A stretch of 35,876 nt of DNA, taken from positions 1-35,876 of the IMG/VR virus record IMGVR_UViG_3300048111_000055; one strand, given 5' to 3'. Below are positions 13,951-29,714 of this stretch, piece by piece. The notes beneath the pieces are model-generated. The model did not search any database. It was not told where the DNA came from and saw only the letters and a program-made list of their open reading frames with translations. The DNA is from a virus. The number at the start of each line of letters is the position of its first letter. Positions within the stretch are counted from its first letter, which is position 1. Made by a program: the position numbers and the translations under genes.

Positions 13951-15081
13951 ATGATTTTAGAACATAAAGATGCGTTATACGCAGCCAATGCTTTTGATGA
14001 GTTCTTCGGGAACATCGAACGTATTGATGAATACATGAGACAGGTCAAGATGGAACGTATGGAATCCTTTCCGTACTCTCTGCCTGGCATGGGGCCAGAA
14101 GAAGATCTGTTCAGCAACTTCGATATCCATCCGTCAGAGATGGAGTTTGTAATACAAGAATCGCCCGCAAATCAATTCATGTCCTATATGGAAATTGTTA
14201 CGTCCGCACCTGTGGAGGCATCGATCCCAGGCAAGGGATTGAAGTGGGTGATCAAAGAAAAGAACACTAACAAAGTTATCGGTATGATTCGTTTCGGGTC
14301 TCCTACTATTAATAGTAAACCACGGAACGAATGGTTAGGACGACCACTAGACAGTATGAATCCAGAGGTTATGAAAAGGTTCAACGACTCCGCAATCATG
14401 GGGTTCAACATTGTACCTACTCAACCGTTTGGATACAACTATCTTGGTGGTAAGTTACTGGCCGCAATATGTTGTTCCCACTACACACGTGAAGCATTGA
14501 ACAAGAAGTATGATAGTAACTTCTGTATGTTCGAGACCACTTCGTTATACGGATCAACTAAGTCTGCTTCGCAATACGATGGTATGAAACCATTCTTGCG
14601 ATTCAACGGTTTGACAGACTCAAACTTCTTACCACTTATCAATGACGACACTTACCGCAGACTAAGTGCATGGTTCATTGAGAAAAACGGTGGTGAACCC
14701 TTGGTTCCTGTTGACGCCTCATCTCGTAAACTAAAAACACAAACCAAGATGGCATCTATCATCAAAGCCTCTCTCAAAGTTCATGATGAAGTTGCCTACA
14801 AGAAGTTCTGTCAAACCTACTCTAATGCAAAGGATCTGACCGAACAGAAACGTTCGTTCGTGTCCACATATGGTTACGAGAATGTACCCCAGTACTTGAA
14901 CCTAGAAACAGATACATTGATCAAGAAAGAGAACTTTGACAGATTCTCTCTTGAGGGTGTTACCGCATGGTGGCGTAAGAATGCCGTCAAACGTTATGAC
15001 AAACTCAAGAGTGAAGGTCGTCTGAGACGTACCGTGGAGACTTGGAACGTCAATGCAGACGATATCGATATTATAAGATAA
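13951..15081 (+). CDS. DUF4338/DruA-like protein
   Basis: This 376-aa protein is transcribed opposite to all structural and replication genes. Residues about 75-215 look like the DUF4338 family, which includes DruA of the Druantia defence system: a strand pair (KWVIKEKNTNKVIGMIRFG), the segment NIVPTQPFGYNYLGGKLLA at 153-171, then FETTSLYGSTKSASQYDGM at 194-212 with the family-like 'Glu-Thr-(x)n-Tyr' pattern. The C-terminal third is basic and helical (SEGRLRRTVETWN) and could bind DNA. DUF4338 proteins are of unsettled biochemical role; their place in bacterial defence is known, but here the gene is in a phage. The family call is by pattern only. Promoter and Shine-Dalgarno are strong. Confidence 0.6.
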   Translation: MILEHKDALYAANAFDEFFGNIERIDEYMRQVKMERMESFPYSLPGMGPEEDLFSNFDIHPSEMEFVIQESPANQFMSYMEIVTSAPVEASIPGKGLKWVIKEKNTNKVIGMIRFGSPTINSKPRNEWLGRPLDSMNPEVMKRFNDSAIMGFNIVPTQPFGYNYLGGKLLAAICCSHYTREALNKKYDSNFCMFETTSLYGSTKSASQYDGMKPFLRFNGLTDSNFLPLINDDTYRRLSAWFIEKNGGEPLVPVDASSRKLKTQTKMASIIKASLKVHDEVAYKKFCQTYSNAKDLTEQKRSFVSTYGYENVPQYLNLETDTLIKKENFDRFSLEGVTAWWRKNAVKRYDKLKSEGRLRRTVETWNVNADDIDIIR

Positions 15082-15149
15082 GATTCTTATATATAATAGT
15101 AAGGCATTCATACCGAATGTCAAAAATAAAATAATCTAAGGAGATTATA

Positions 15150-16142
15150 ATGATTACTAGTAACACTAAATTTAGTGGCGTTTCTGGCGCACTATCAAAT
15201 CTTAAAGGTGAACGTGTATCCATTCAGGAAGTCATCGACACCGTCCTACAAATCACCAACATGAAATCAAAGACATTGGCTGACATGAAGACCAATGCAT
15301 CTTACAATCCATCTGAAGTTGGTGTAGTTCCTTTAAATTCTCTTTATGTTGATATGACCTATCAACGTATCATTCGTCTTCAGAAGTTGATCAACAAACT
15401 TCGAAAGTTGGGCGGGTTTGACATGTACTCTGCTGGCGTTGTTGATATTGCGATACGACCTAGTGGTGACAGTTATGTATGGGACGGTCTAAGACGTTGC
15501 ATCATGGCTGGACTATGTGGATTGACTCACGTGAAGTCATCTCAGTTCGTACATCCAATGAACGCCTCCAATGAAGATTGTCAAAAACAAGAGGCAAGAT
15601 ATTTCAAGTCTCGTAATGCAGACCAAGAAAGTATGAAGGCAGAAGAAATATTTAAATCAGAAGTTGTTTATGGTGACCCGAAAGCACTAGAACTTTTGAG
15701 ACTAATTAAAAACTGTAGACTCGACATCGAAGGATTAAATCCAGGCGGCCGAATTTTCGGTGGGTTTGTCGAGGTACGTGACAATTACTTCAAGAAAGAT
15801 AAAATAGAAGACGAGTATTTTATTGAAGCGTCAAGTATTATTCAAAACATTTATCCTAAAGAAGTTATCTCTGGTTACTTGTTGACTGGTCTTGCGTATC
15901 TTTTAACTAAGAACGAAGATTCAGATATATCTTACTCAGCCGAAGAACTGGTAGAAGCTTTACGTAATTACGCATCAGTCAATCAGAAACAAACAGATCT
16001 GATCCGTGGTAGACTGGCAGGAAACGCAAGAGGTAGTATCGCTTACCTAATCGCAAGACGTGTACTAAGAGATAACAACGGACTTATCAATTCTATTGGA
16101 TTAGATGAAGAATCTATGAATTTAGTTGACGAAGCGGCTTGA
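15150..16142 (+). CDS. ParB/Srx-fold-like protein, 330 aa
   Basis: The gene follows the DUF4338-like gene by 68 bases, with AAGGAG 6 bases before ATG 15150. Residues about 58-125 follow the ParB N-terminal (ParB/Srx nuclease) pattern: VVPLNSLYVDMTYQR, a short helix, GGFDMYSAGVVDI, and W-D112-G-L-R-R116, which corresponds to the family's D-G-x-x-R loop, followed by a hydrophobic helix. The C-terminal two thirds (helical, about 150-320) are not recognised. ParB-fold proteins bind or cut nucleic acid or hydrolyse nucleotides; this one lacks an obvious helix-turn-helix centromere-binding domain. Together with the preceding gene it makes a two-gene cassette. The -35 of the following tRNA promoter overlaps its stop. 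Confidence 0.65.
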   Translation: MITSNTKFSGVSGALSNLKGERVSIQEVIDTVLQITNMKSKTLADMKTNASYNPSEVGVVPLNSLYVDMTYQRIIRLQKLINKLRKLGGFDMYSAGVVDIAIRPSGDSYVWDGLRRCIMAGLCGLTHVKSSQFVHPMNASNEDCQKQEARYFKSRNADQESMKAEEIFKSEVVYGDPKALELLRLIKNCRLDIEGLNPGGRIFGGFVEVRDNYFKKDKIEDEYFIEASSIIQNIYPKEVISGYLLTGLAYLLTKNEDSDISYSAEELVEALRNYASVNQKQTDLIRGRLAGNARGSIAYLIARRVLRDNNGLINSIGLDEESMNLVDEAA

Positions 16143-16168
16143 CATTGACCTAAGAGTTGTGGTATAAT
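16139..16168 (+). promoter_or_regulatory. Sigma70 promoter for the tRNA gene
   Basis: TTGACA (16139-16144), 18 bp, TATAAT (16163-16168) on the plus strand. The start site near 16175 is 7 bases before the tRNA 5' end. The -35 box overlaps the stop codon of the ParB-like gene. Confidence 0.8.
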
Positions 16169-16181
16169 ATACCCATATTAT

Positions 16182-16253
16182 GCGGAATTAGTATAATGAT
16201 TACATTAGGTGTCCAACCTAAAGATGGAGGTTCAAGTCCTCTGTTCCGCTCCA
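16182..16253 (+). tRNA. tRNA-Gly(UCC), encoded CCA, atypical position 33
   Basis: A complete cloverleaf: a 7-bp acceptor stem GCGGAAT/GTTCCGC, discriminator T followed by encoded CCA, a short D-stem GTA/TAC, an anticodon stem TTAGG/CCTAA with 7-base loop TGTCCAA, a 4-base variable loop, and T-arm GGAGG-TTCAAGT-CCTCT. The loop places TCC at 34-36 (Gly, codons GGA and possibly GGG). G1-C72, C2-G71 and U73 agree with glycine identity and with the T4 tRNA-Gly. Position 33 is G instead of the almost universal U, and the D-loop has GA where GG is expected at 18-19. It has its own promoter and terminator. Confidence 0.85.
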
Positions 16254-25748: not shown

Positions 25749-26079
25749 CAATCACTTTTTCCTCATCACGTAGTATTCGCTGAAGGTCAGCAGTAGAACC
25801 TATAAACACATTGTTGTTGGTGGTGCCACCATCTTGACCAATCTGTTTGGGTTCTTGTTTAATGTCCTTGTTCTTCTTATTCAAGTCCATCAACTTATCG
25901 TTCACGTCCGAGATGTTTTTGATCATCCCAGATAATACTTCGAATGCACGAGGGTGTTCCGACTCTCGTGCCACTTCGATCATGAGTTCCAACGACTCCC
26001 TACCCTTCTCGATTAACTCGTAGTAGGTGTCTCTTGAATATTCATAATCGGTATTAACATTTTTGTTGTCATCTGTCAT
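25723..26079 (-). CDS. 16: Terminase small subunit gp16
   Basis: gp16 recognises DNA and regulates gp17 for packaging. The 118 aa (T4: 164) have the central helical segment (ESLELMIEVARESEHPRAFEV) typical of T4-like small terminases, where two antiparallel helices form the oligomer core, and a C-terminal part that ends inside gene 17. ATG 26079 overlaps the gp15 stop (ATGA). It lies directly in front of 17, as in T4. Confidence 0.92.
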   Translation of the reverse strand: MTDDNKNVNTDYEYSRDTYYELIEKGRESLELMIEVARESEHPRAFEVLSGMIKNISDVNDKLMDLNKKNKDIKQEPKQIGQDGGTTNNNVFIGSTADLQRILRDEEKVIDVEPSGKE

Positions 26080-26858
26080 TCTGCTTCACTGTCAAGGCTT
26101 GTTACATTAAATCCAAAGTCATCATCTGGACTTACATTAGATGGTGTAGGTGTTATATTTATCCCACTTGCAAATAGGTCACTATCTTGTGGGCCTTCAT
26201 TCATTAGGAAGAAGTTTGTATTCACTTCTCTAATGATAGGCGCATCTTTGTCTGGGCCATAGAAAGACACTTTCATCTCGAAGTCTAGTGTATAGAGAAT
26301 GGTACGTCTTTGACCTACCGATCCTTCGAAGTCGTCCGAGAATGTAACACCGTTCAATATGATGGGGGTGTCTTCTGTAATCTCTGAGTAATCAGCAAAC
26401 GGTTTAACCGATACTGTGTACTGGGGATTGAAATATGGTATGACCTGTTCCACGATCTGTAGTGCATCGTCTTGTGACTTGGCATATACGTTCAACTGGA
26501 AACCAATTGTATATGGAACAGATGTATAAAATCTTTTCTTTTTGGTATTGTCTGTGGCAGACCGTGTAAACTTATTTACCTTGGGTAACTGTCTCTCTGG
26601 ATCGTATGCAATGTTTGTAATCTCGAAAGACATACGTGGGAGTTTCATTGCAACTCTACGTTCCGCTTCCTCTCCCTTTGCCATCTCTGCGAGACGATCA
26701 ATAAATGATCTACGTGGAGCATACGACAACGGAACCTTGACCTGAGATATTGTTGCGCCCGAAGAGTTCTGTCTCAACACGTGTATGTTATTGAACATAG
26801 AACCGAATACCGATACGGCAGTTCTTACTCTCTTGTTATAAAACCAAGTACCAAACAT
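26076..26858 (-). CDS. 15: Tail sheath stabiliser / completion protein gp15
   Basis: gp15 caps the tail and joins it to the neck. The 260 aa (T4: 272) open with the characteristic MFGTWFYNKRVRTAVSVFG and continue with SMFNNIHVLRQNSSG and VKVPLSYAPRRSFIDRL, which is the same order of features as in T4. ATG 26858 overlaps the gp14 stop as TAATG. The C-terminal tail (residues 230-260) is acidic and variable. Confidence 0.95.
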   Translation of the reverse strand: MFGTWFYNKRVRTAVSVFGSMFNNIHVLRQNSSGATISQVKVPLSYAPRRSFIDRLAEMAKGEEAERRVAMKLPRMSFEITNIAYDPERQLPKVNKFTRSATDNTKKKRFYTSVPYTIGFQLNVYAKSQDDALQIVEQVIPYFNPQYTVSVKPFADYSEITEDTPIILNGVTFSDDFEGSVGQRRTILYTLDFEMKVSFYGPDKDAPIIREVNTNFFLMNEGPQDSDLFASGINITPTPSNVSPDDDFGFNVTSLDSEAE

Positions 26859-28945
26859 TAGAACATATCTCCGAATGGGTTAGACTCTGAGAAGTCTAAG
26901 AAGTCTGCCTCAAAATCATCAAATACTTTATTCTGTGCAGTAGGTTGTATTTCCTGTAGATCTTCTACAAGTTTAGGAACCCACTGAGCGTTAGATGATG
27001 CACCGACTACAGATCTCGATGTTGAGAATGTTTTGAATGTACCATCAGTACTACCAACATGAGCGAGTTGAAGTATGCGGTCACTATCTGACCAACGAGT
27101 AACTTCACCTTTAATCGTATAACTTGCGTTGGTTTGGGTAACAGTCTCTCCGATCAAGAAGTCAGATGAATCTAAGTTTTCGGCTGTAGTAACTGTAGGC
27201 AGATCAGAATAAAATGAACCAGAGTCAACTATATTTACAGATGTGACAACACCATCTGTTATGTTGGTCGTCAACACCGCAGTAGACCCTTCAAAATGTT
27301 CTAGTAGGGCAGTATTAGAGTTACTATCAAATGCGGAAACCACTTCAGTGAATGACGTTACTGGAGCAGGTTGCGATGAAACAATAATGTTTCCGACCAT
27401 GTTCTCATGACCACCTACAGTACATTGATAGGTGTAAGTTCCTGTCGCAGAAGGTGTGAATGTTGTCGTTCCACCTGTCTCTGTCACCAGAACATTGTTC
27501 CCATCATCTTTTATCTCAACAGGGTGACCACCAGAATTGTTCTGTAGGACTAATGTATCTCCATTGATGATATTGATATCGGGATCAGTAAGATCTGTGA
27601 TTTCACCGTTTCGGTCAGACTGACTCGCATCAAAGGTATAATCACTACCATCACCACTAGCAATAGTTAGAGTATACGATTGTGTAGTGTGAGTTGTCGT
27701 AGATGTTCTTCCGTCAAATATGTCAGCTTTACTTCCAGCTAACGCACGGAACTCATCGATTTTGCCTAAAAAACCAGAATAAGAAACTCCACCGACTGTA
27801 CGTGGCGATTCCGAACCTAATGAAACCGTGTTGGAAGTAATTAATGATAGGTTTCTAGTCGTGTCACTATCTAAAATTTGTGTGCCGTCTAAGAAAGCGT
27901 ATATGCGACTATTTGTACCAGAACCATTACTATCAAAACCAATAACTAAGTGATGCCAAGTATCATTCGTAAGACTAGCATTAGTTAAAATATTTGCATC
28001 TGGTTCACCAGATAAAGGTTCCCTGAAAGAATATGATATCCTACTTTGATCATCTATACCCCAAGTCATTATATTAGGATCGATGGAGTTAGTACCAGCA
28101 ACAGTCATGAACGACTGATATTGACCATTTGTGGGAACCGAAAGTTGACGTAAAAAAAGTTCGACCGTACCGTTATCACTAGCAAATAAGAAATTCTGGG
28201 TAAAACCTCTATCTAGATTTGACGATAAGGAGTTTTGTCCAAACTTAGCAGTAGTCTGAGGCGCAGTGAGTGTTACTGTTGGTGCCGTTACATAACCCTT
28301 ACCACCTTTGACAATATCAACCTGACGTACACCACCAGTAACAGGATTAAGGTTTTGAATATTCATCTCTAGAGTGTTTTCTGAAGACGGTTCCATTGTG
28401 ACTTTATACTGGTAAGCACCTTCATACTCAATTTGATCAATAGATGCAATGTTAGTATCAAAGTCTTCGTCACTATATTCAAACAACTCACACTGCATTC
28501 GGAATACAGGTAGTTGACTCAGTTGATAGAACGGAGTCTCGGTCTCTACCTTCATTACCTCAAACATAGAGTTTGACATCGGTAGGTAAATCACATCACC
28601 TTCACGTGGACGGAAACCAACCTCTGCTAGGTTGTCGCCAATTAGTTTCTTCCAACGTCTACGTGCAAATACGAATGTTGCCTGATCACGCAATTCGATA
28701 CCAAATTTAGTGAACAGGTCACCCTCTCCATCGAACCCTTCGGTATTCTCGATGTAAGTCTCGATCTTGTACGCATCAGTAAATCGTGAAGGAACATCAT
28801 CAGCAAAGATTTTATCCTTGTTGACAATTTCACGTGGGATGTAGTATACGTCCTCACCATAGAACTTCAGAGACTCGATTACGAGATCTTCGTAAAGACT
28901 TTGTTCGGATCGTACCTTTTTGCTGATATACGGATTTGTTGCCAT
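26858..28945 (-). CDS. 14: Neck protein gp14 with LamG-like and cupredoxin-like insertions
   Basis: The first about 200 residues (PYISKKVRSEQSLYEDLVIES, RRRWKKLIGDNLAEVGFRPREGD) and the last about 50 (KVFDDFEADFLDFSESNPFGD) are those of the T4-type head-completion protein gp14, which is only 256 aa in T4. Between them are about 440 extra residues: a concanavalin/LamG-like beta-sandwich (about 228-411, with DTWHHLVIGFD and KIDEFRAL) and a cupredoxin-like domain (about 422-524) with all four type-1 copper ligands in order, H474, C508, H513 and M516. Short flanking motifs IVKGGKGYVTAPTV (211-224) and IVDSGSFYSDLPTV (572-585) are repeats of each other. The frame is continuous and shows no sign of frameshift. 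Confidence 0.93.
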   Translation of the reverse strand: MATNPYISKKVRSEQSLYEDLVIESLKFYGEDVYYIPREIVNKDKIFADDVPSRFTDAYKIETYIENTEGFDGEGDLFTKFGIELRDQATFVFARRRWKKLIGDNLAEVGFRPREGDVIYLPMSNSMFEVMKVETETPFYQLSQLPVFRMQCELFEYSDEDFDTNIASIDQIEYEGAYQYKVTMEPSSENTLEMNIQNLNPVTGGVRQVDIVKGGKGYVTAPTVTLTAPQTTAKFGQNSLSSNLDRGFTQNFLFASDNGTVELFLRQLSVPTNGQYQSFMTVAGTNSIDPNIMTWGIDDQSRISYSFREPLSGEPDANILTNASLTNDTWHHLVIGFDSNGSGTNSRIYAFLDGTQILDSDTTRNLSLITSNTVSLGSESPRTVGGVSYSGFLGKIDEFRALAGSKADIFDGRTSTTTHTTQSYTLTIASGDGSDYTFDASQSDRNGEITDLTDPDINIINGDTLVLQNNSGGHPVEIKDDGNNVLVTETGGTTTFTPSATGTYTYQCTVGGHENMVGNIIVSSQPAPVTSFTEVVSAFDSNSNTALLEHFEGSTAVLTTNITDGVVTSVNIVDSGSFYSDLPTVTTAENLDSSDFLIGETVTQTNASYTIKGEVTRWSDSDRILQLAHVGSTDGTFKTFSTSRSVVGASSNAQWVPKLVEDLQEIQPTAQNKVFDDFEADFLDFSESNPFGDMF

Positions 28946-28946
28946 A

Positions 28947-29714
28947 TTACCCTGCGAAGAAGATAGGGCCTACATCTTCCTCTTCCCTAAACCTAGTACG
29001 AATCTGTTCAAGTTCATTGTTAGCGTCCTCAAATATAGAACGACCACTGATCTGAACACCCCCAGGCAAGGTCATGCCATCAAACTTTAATAGGTTGGTT
29101 CCCCATTGCCTTTTGATAATTGCGGTTAGATACTCTTTAAGAAACTTGTGATTGAACAGAGAATTGTAATCACCACCAGCAGATTCTTCAGATGGAGTTC
29201 TGATACCATAGACTTCGATAACAATGTGATCGCCTACAGTGAGTTTCTCGGAACTCAAGTAGTAGTATAAACGATTACCTTGTCGGTCAAATGTAGTTTC
29301 GGGCGTACCGCTTAGTTTCATATCAAGTAATGATAGATGTTGTTGCATTTGTTCGTAGTATGCAATGTCACCAGCATAGTTGTTCAAATCGGTGACATCG
29401 TTCAACATCATCTGATACTTGATATCAAAGAAATTTGTTGTTTGTGAAACAGTGTTGATCGGGAACATACGAACAACAGTGGAGATGGATGCATCTCCGA
29501 GATCGATATATCCGTTGTTAACAATGTCTTGAGTGACGGCAAACGACATGTAGTGTCTACGTGAACCATCTGGATGATTCTCACGGAACCACTGAAGTGC
29601 CTCGTCTACACGATCTTCTAGTTGTTCGTCATCGACATTTATTTCAAGAACAGGCGCACCCAAACTACGTAAGCAATAATCTATTAGTTCTTGTCTAGTG
29701 TTAGGACTTGCCAT
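28947..29714 (-). CDS. 13: Neck protein gp13
   Basis: gp13 joins the portal to the tail together with gp14. The 255 aa (T4: 309) show the expected order of features: N-terminal TRQELIDYCLRSLGAP, QLEDRVDEALQWFRENHPDG, the beta part NNGYIDLGDASISTVVRMFP and the C-terminal AIIKRQWGTNLLKFDGMTLPG. The stop is one base from the start of 14. Upstream lies the fibre-like gene, with a gap of 19 bases. Confidence 0.95.
   Translation of the reverse strand: MASPNTRQELIDYCLRSLGAPVLEINVDDEQLEDRVDEALQWFRENHPDGSRRHYMSFAVTQDIVNNGYIDLGDASISTVVRMFPINTVSQTTNFFDIKYQMMLNDVTDLNNYAGDIAYYEQMQQHLSLLDMKLSGTPETTFDRQGNRLYYYLSSEKLTVGDHIVIEVYGIRTPSEESAGGDYNSLFNHKFLKEYLTAIIKRQWGTNLLKFDGMTLPGGVQISGRSIFEDANNELEQIRTRFREEEDVGPIFFAG

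Follow-up and report, generated by a model that had tools for sequence, protein, structure and literature searches.

What enlarges a phage neck protein to nearly three times its usual length, and what might the added residues do on the particle? The question is raised by the gp14 of a T4-like phage, uncultured and probably of marine origin, which is encoded in the 35,876-nucleotide stretch of an IMG/VR record (IMGVR_UViG_3300048111_000055, positions 1 to 35,876) that we call the window. A minus-strand open reading frame at 26858-28945, free of stops throughout, encodes a 695-aa gp14 neck (head closure Hc2) protein, based on matches to phrog_460 (E 3.1e-98) and the Pfam family T4_neck-protein (PF11649; residues 4-174, E 1.6e-36). 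In the PDB, T4-type gp14 has a chain length of 256 aa and matches residues 3-165 of the window protein; PDB neck chains (E 3e-29) and alignment together place a T4-homologous core at residues 1-184 (28394-28945, minus strand). The gene lies between those for gp13, the head-tail adaptor Ad2 (28947-29714, minus strand; phrog_211, E 4.3e-35), and gp15, a 260-aa tail sheath stabilizer that lacks a cupredoxin domain (26076-26858, minus strand; PF16724, E 2.5e-64). This gp13-gp14-gp15 order is that of Phage C48C1, and it occurs together with the PF11649 core, the two features by which we recognize a T4 gp14 neck protein. Core residues 1-174 and gene order are thus alike in T4 and the window, whereas the window protein has about 400 extra residues in its C-terminal region, comprising a LamG domain and a cupredoxin domain. 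An earlier note on this DNA had described gp14 as enlarged by an insert, from about 256 aa in T4 to 695 aa here, and the reading frame, Pfam, and PDB comparisons all bear this out.

Genes for the large terminase, tail sheath, portal, and major capsid protein lie farther along the window. Adjoining the major capsid gene is a plus-strand island within the minus-strand region (13951-16253), containing two ORFs (phrog_19197 and a phrog_2558-like protein) and a tRNA-Gly(tcc). An identical gp14 (100%) is encoded on a 144-kb IMG/VR contig (L001), which may not be an independent sample. A search with the domain profile found a single cupredoxin domain on that contig, the one in gp14, and none on a 151-kb contig with a compact gp14.

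The inserted residues include two domains flanked by two short beta units. The LamG, or concanavalin-like, domain is of a sugar-binding type; it occupies residues about 236-404 (27734-28240, minus strand) and was matched at residues 251-401 by Laminin_G_3 (PF13385; E 2.7e-9), passing the cut-off of 27.6 bits with a score of 37.8. The corresponding part of a whole-gp14 model aligned with LG domains at a VIA Z of up to 13.9 and an rmsd of 2.6 over 159 residues; the model had a mean pLDDT of 62.3 and a poor N-terminal core, and we used it for the inserted domains alone. The cupredoxin domain follows at residues 422-522 (27380-27682, minus strand). By eye, a "GxGYxxAPT" unit stands on either side of this pair: "GxGYxxAPTVTL" ahead of the insert, at residues about 192-227 (28265-28372, minus strand; model strands E193-199, E206-213, and E224-226), and "GSFYSDLPTVTT" past it, at residues about 557-588 (27182-27277, minus strand; model strands E557-563, E566-574, and E585-587). 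Similar units, repeated, are visible in the gp14 of cultured cyanophages. The protein ends in a segment conserved by alignment (residues 595-695; 26861-27163, minus strand), which directly follows the core in compact gp14. The range singled out earlier, 27374-28264, corresponds to residues 228-524, and the LamG-like domain suspected there is recovered by both profile and fold.

The second domain suspected in that range was plastocyanin-like, with structure prediction suggested as the check. An AlphaFold2 model of the 101-aa domain, built with a 41-row alignment, returned a fold of the plastocyanin/auracyanin type with high confidence (mean pLDDT 96.9, pTM 0.88). Foldseek matched it to 41 PDB entries with E values up to 0.001, the top one being rusticyanin (4.0e-5), and all 50 of the 50 matches listed were copper cupredoxins or multicopper enzymes, including plastocyanins (3cvb and 3cvd are so named), pseudoazurins, amicyanins, auracyanins, and nitrite reductases. 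VIA-align superposed the model on the N-terminal cupredoxin of the nitrite reductase 2dv6 (Z 11.7, rmsd 2.1, 91 residues) and on auracyanin A (Z 9.2). A profile of eight copies also matched copper proteins among PDB sequences (E 1.9e-5). The Pfam family Copper-bind (PF00127) matched residues 456-522 with an E value of 0.013 and 16.4 bits for the whole protein, below the cut-off of 21.2, which is a curator's threshold and not a defining feature of type-1 cupredoxins; a further gp14 score was 17.7 bits and that of the domain alone 20.8, all below the same cut-off, and one relative (L060) cleared it with 22.1. Based on the model and its matches, residues 422-522 of gp14 are predicted to have a Greek-key cupredoxin fold. 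An immunoglobulin-like domain is not favored, given that all 50 PDB matches listed are copper cupredoxins or multicopper enzymes, and a CuA cupredoxin, which has two Cys ligands, is rejected by the single Cys of the domain.

The residues that would form a metal site are His474 (codon at 27524-27526), Cys508 (27422-27424; the sole Cys in the domain), His513 (27407-27409), and Met516 (27398-27400), all on the minus strand and with the numbering and spacing reported earlier. In an alignment of 41 domains, both histidines and the cysteine were invariant (41/41 each) and the methionine was kept in 40/41, with Asp in L080. Only five columns never varied, namely, Tyr506, Ile520, His513, His474, and Cys508, although 35 of the 40 other rows were just 30-43% identical to the window copy. 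All four candidate ligands fell within the 8 best-conserved of the 101 columns; for four positions chosen beforehand, the chance of this is 1.7e-5 if relatedness is ignored. The alignment was made by removing domains more than 93% alike and stretches shorter than 88 aa, which left 44 rows, and then omitting L095 and L008 (both split by inserts, L008 with the quartet) and L092 (complete, with the quartet); the window copy stands in for the identical L001. In alignments with the eight-copy profile, the four positions align with residues of rusticyanin that we take to be its copper ligands.

The quartet also recurs beyond this alignment, in agreement with the earlier suggestion that homologues would reveal whether it is conserved. 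Of the two outcomes that the earlier note had named as refuting its reading, a fold of another kind or homologues devoid of the four residues, neither was observed. All four residues were kept at 15/15 examined loci with a long, cupredoxin-bearing gp14 (14 contigs, 9 distinct proteins) and in 56 of the 64 distinct stretches that the first profile recovered. Most of the domains came from an IMG/VR scan seeded with ligand-free motifs, which found 64 loci; the motifs of some other scans did contain His, Cys, or Met. A profile with the ligand columns masked still recovered the quartet in 64 of 74 distinct stretches. We therefore reject the view that conservation is a search artifact, because the seed motifs were ligand free and masking altered little. 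Fold and conservation together likewise reject a chance motif.

The ten stretches without a quartet in the masked search were of several kinds. Three are N-terminal halves (L007, L009, and L095) whose Cys-His-Met half comes after an insert, and one is a C-terminal half alone (L061). Copies in L061, L062, and L087 stop short of the Cys-His-Met end, L080 has lost the Met and also gave one spurious match, and L117 (phage S-CAM1) has a C-x2-H-x2-M motif upstream of its His half. On this comparison, real ligand losses exist but are few. The truncated copies in L061 (about 923-1008 aa) and L062 (about 964-1051 aa) each adjoin a complete one. In L117 (835-3090), the two cupredoxin-like halves are reversed, with C-x2-H-x2-M at about residue 203 and the His half at about 271. 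This order does not bear out a split by an insert as the cause of its missing quartet, and the domain is perhaps a permuted copy, judging from the order of its motifs. In L095 (1252-4239), a segment with GHSQGG, alpha/beta hydrolase-like by eye, lies between the two cupredoxin halves.

The loop carrying the last three ligands varies in length. Among the 56 distinct quartets, C-x2-H-x2-M occurs in 46, C-x4-H-x2-M in 5, and C-x2-H-x3-M in 5. The C-x4-H-x2-M loop is confined to gp14 copies of the 678/695-aa form, and to our knowledge it fits no classical type-1 Cys-His-Met spacing. The C-x2-H-x3-M loop belongs to four gp15 copies and L060. C-x2-H-x2-M, presumably the amicyanin spacing, is the loop of 828- to 872-aa gp14 forms.

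Comparison of gp14 sequences across relatives indicates that the protein is a modular insertion site, occurring as compact, 374-aa, 565- to 593-aa, 678/695-aa, and 828- to 872-aa forms. Compact gp14 is about 290 aa in these relatives, the core continuing straight into the C-terminal segment. Among the best 80 of 554 gp14 loci, with lengths measured from stop to stop, 48 were compact, 4 had the 374-aa form with repeat-like beta units only, 22 had the 565- to 593-aa form (LamG by Pfam in 3 of 4 tested), 4 carried a cupredoxin, and 2 were cut; the gp14 cupredoxin was thus absent in 76 of these 80, two of the 76 being cut. In L007 to L010, the cupredoxin is itself split just ahead of its first His by a beta-rich segment that adds 140-180 aa, and the quartet is kept. 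This nested segment, "FGGSFGGA...EDWxGF...EYQSYPDxxPS" (L007, 3001-5484; L008, 3001-5616; L009 and L010, 3001-5547), gave no Pfam match when the piece from L007 was searched. We also tabulated 40 loci, mixing gp14-derived with cupredoxin-derived loci and overlapping the set of 80, so that its fractions are not frequencies: the cupredoxin was on gp14 in 14, on gp15 in 4, and on both in 0, and 22 had none on either protein, four of these having an incomplete gp15 or no gp15 at all. With so many relatives lacking it, the module is dispensable, which fits an accessory role as far as these comparisons go.

Where the cupredoxin is on gp15 (L044 and L057 to L059), gp14 has its compact form and the C terminus of gp15 bears a closely related domain, which begins at about residue 264 in L044. 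In a phylogenetic tree, three gp14 and three gp15 copies formed one group with support of 98/96; the tree sampled 13 of 29 genome-scan loci and none of the 828- to 872-aa gp14 forms. By extrapolation past the alignment, the gp14 insert starts near the equivalent of T4 residue 203. T4 gp14 is a hexamer, and its residues 178-256 touch residues 203-245 of gp15 in the mature particle, according to a preprint (PMC12270204). Because the C-terminal region of T4 gp14 contacts gp15, the gp14- and gp15-borne cupredoxins probably arrive at the same neck-tail junction.

Other gp15 proteins are enlarged in other ways. Three are 680-705 aa long (L029, 3855-5894; L033, 2855-4894; L222, 4312-6426), and those of L029 and L222 have DUF285 arrays in place of the cupredoxin. 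DUF285 arrays occur together with a cupredoxin in a bacterial lipoprotein-like protein (L146). In L010, gp15 (329 aa, counted from the stop ahead of it) finishes with a long tail rich in Ser, Gly, and Asp; L009 has the same gp14 as L010, and its gp15 reads as two ORFs.

Related domains are found well beyond the neck. With one relative as the query, tblastn matched 165 of 50,697 phage records, 161 of them cyanophage-named; the gp9 domain of phage P-RSM4 matched 347 of the same 50,697 (340 cyanophage-named), a set that overlaps the 165. The marine cyanophage gp9, a baseplate wedge-tail fiber connector, carries the related cupredoxin near its C terminus with the same quartet, intact in four of four isolates (P-RSM4, P-TIM68, S-RIM8, and S-H34; L110, L111, L113, and L114) and in 66/66 distinct IMG/VR copies (L231 to L310, the best 80 of 541 loci), which are at least 66% identical to one another. 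It differs from window gp14 in its baseplate carrier, its C-x2-H-x2-M loop, and its separate branch in the tree. Further carriers are fibers and S8-peptidase-like proteins; cyanophage proteins of the latter kind (L046, L065, L075, L087, and others) have the cupredoxin at the end, with several copies in L087. One relative bears the name "Immunoglobulin domain-containing." The proteins of L044 and L060 matched phrog_515, which gave no match to window gp14 at E values up to 0.01.

The 29 genome-scan loci were, by title, 25 from Bacteroidota, 2 from Euryarchaeota, 1 from Gammaproteobacteria, and 1 from Prochlorococcus; the last is probably a phage, as it matches the L062 contig. Bacteroidota proteins (L120 to L146) bear the same type of cupredoxin, and four (L126, L127, L133, and L146) have lipoprotein-like leaders by eye.

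The window phage need not infect a cyanobacterium. By capsid protein, its nearest isolates are Phage C48C1 (69%), Methylophilales phage Melnitz (62%), Stenotrophomonas phage DLP6 and Pelagibacter phage HTVC008M (62%), and S-CAM9 (60%). In the 144-kb contig that shares this gp14, completeness not given, a search for PF00124 reaction-centre genes found none.

We favor, with moderate confidence, the reading that LamG and the cupredoxin sit on an outward-facing neck module with a copper-binding, type-1-like site, used in attachment or particle stability; this rests on sequence comparison and structural models. The two domains would form an accessory module attached to the neck ring where gp14 meets gp15, probably in six copies per neck, given the hexameric T4 gp14. 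The virion of S-SM1 has been reported to contain a gp14 homologue (PMC3037559).

The cupredoxin would keep a mononuclear type-1-like metal site formed by the His474-Cys508-His513-Met516 quartet, and the retention of these ligands across carriers argues for a working site. The exchange between the two neck proteins, gp14 and gp15, speaks for selection on the neck location, and the company of LamG, fibers, gp9, and lipoprotein-like proteins speaks for a binding domain displayed on the outside. The domain would most likely serve as an auxiliary binder of cell envelopes or particles, the metal either shaping a displayed loop or contributing to the binding itself; electron transfer appears less likely than such a use. 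We know of no receptor-binding site on the neck. Free copper is scarce in the cytoplasm, the site of virion assembly, and this counts against copper; the metal would most likely be bound once the virion has left that reducing compartment. The Pfam score below the cut-off, the C-x4-H-x2-M loop, the few ligand losses, and the dispensability of the module also weigh against our reading.

Several other explanations share parts of this evidence. Copper, or zinc, could do no more than staple a passive stalk or shield, with no part in recognition or redox chemistry. That the quartet is kept while most other columns vary would suit such a staple, as would the spacer-like recurrence of the domain across many carriers and the occupation of the same gp14 site by LamG, repeat units, or other beta inserts. 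However, many beta-sandwich inserts are generally metal free, and strict retention of the Met (40/41) seems beyond the need of a staple, so we consider this account possible but doubtful. Plastocyanin-like electron transfer with the host envelope or photosynthetic partners is improbable, despite the blue-copper fold and ligands and the separate petE gene that cyanophages carry, according to two papers (PMC3037559 and PMC2984593). The gp14 domain is embedded in a neck protein, whereas phage PetE is a free-standing carrier; the free plastocyanin of S-WAM1 (E 0.035) ranks far below the structural proteins; PF00124 was not found in the 144-kb contig, completeness not given; and the host is perhaps not a cyanobacterium.

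The fold might also serve simply as an immunoglobulin-like adhesion domain that retains its ligands by descent alone. Promiscuous beta-sandwich domains are familiar on phage structural proteins, one relative is named for an immunoglobulin domain, and ligands have been lost in L080, L061, L062, and one L087 remnant. Yet the ligand columns belong to the few that never vary, despite the 30-43% identity of most rows to the window copy, and they survive profile masking, which makes a mere relic very unlikely. Mis-assembly or a chance motif has practically no chance of being right: the frame is open, the gene recurs identically on the 144-kb contig, the long proteins number 9 distinct, and there is no evidence in its favor.

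The putative type-1-like site on the neck resembles known systems in part. Its likeness to rusticyanin, auracyanin, amicyanin, and plastocyanin lies in the predicted fold and the His...Cys..His..Met order; it departs from type-1 cupredoxins in sitting in a virion protein, in its C-x4-H-x2-M loop, and in a Pfam score below the cut-off, and its copper is predicted. Like phage Ig-like accessory domains, the module is a beta-sandwich gained and lost on conserved virion proteins; unlike them, it keeps a set of metal ligands. An iron link has been proposed for the tail fiber of phage R22Y by prediction from HxH motifs, in one report (PMC11705849); the idea is similar in placing a trace metal on a virion protein, and both motif and metal differ. 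In open-license PMC literature on copper or cupredoxins and phages, no title that we found deals with cupredoxins of phage particles. The earlier note had called a copper-type domain displayed on the phage neck unusual. An exceptional status of such a domain on phage particles in general is not supported, the gp9 and fibers of many marine cyanophages having the same type with the same quartet; the unusual features are the neck location on gp14 or gp15 and the C-x4-H-x2-M loop.

That a closely related domain sits on gp14 in some phages and on gp15 in others suggests selection for its location on the particle and not for the carrier gene. We can also imagine, as a speculative and unlikely extension, that marine T4-like phages commonly have working blue-copper centers on neck, gp9, and fibers, that the neck site is a copper- or redox-responsive attachment switch or docking module, and that the particles make up a measurable ocean pool of protein-bound copper. 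The gp9 version is present in cultured cyanophages, which opens the copper idea to direct laboratory testing. Should the sites prove to be loaded, copper would be a component of the particles of a large group of ocean phages, with consequences for how these phages attach, how long their particles last, and the chemistry of copper in the sea.
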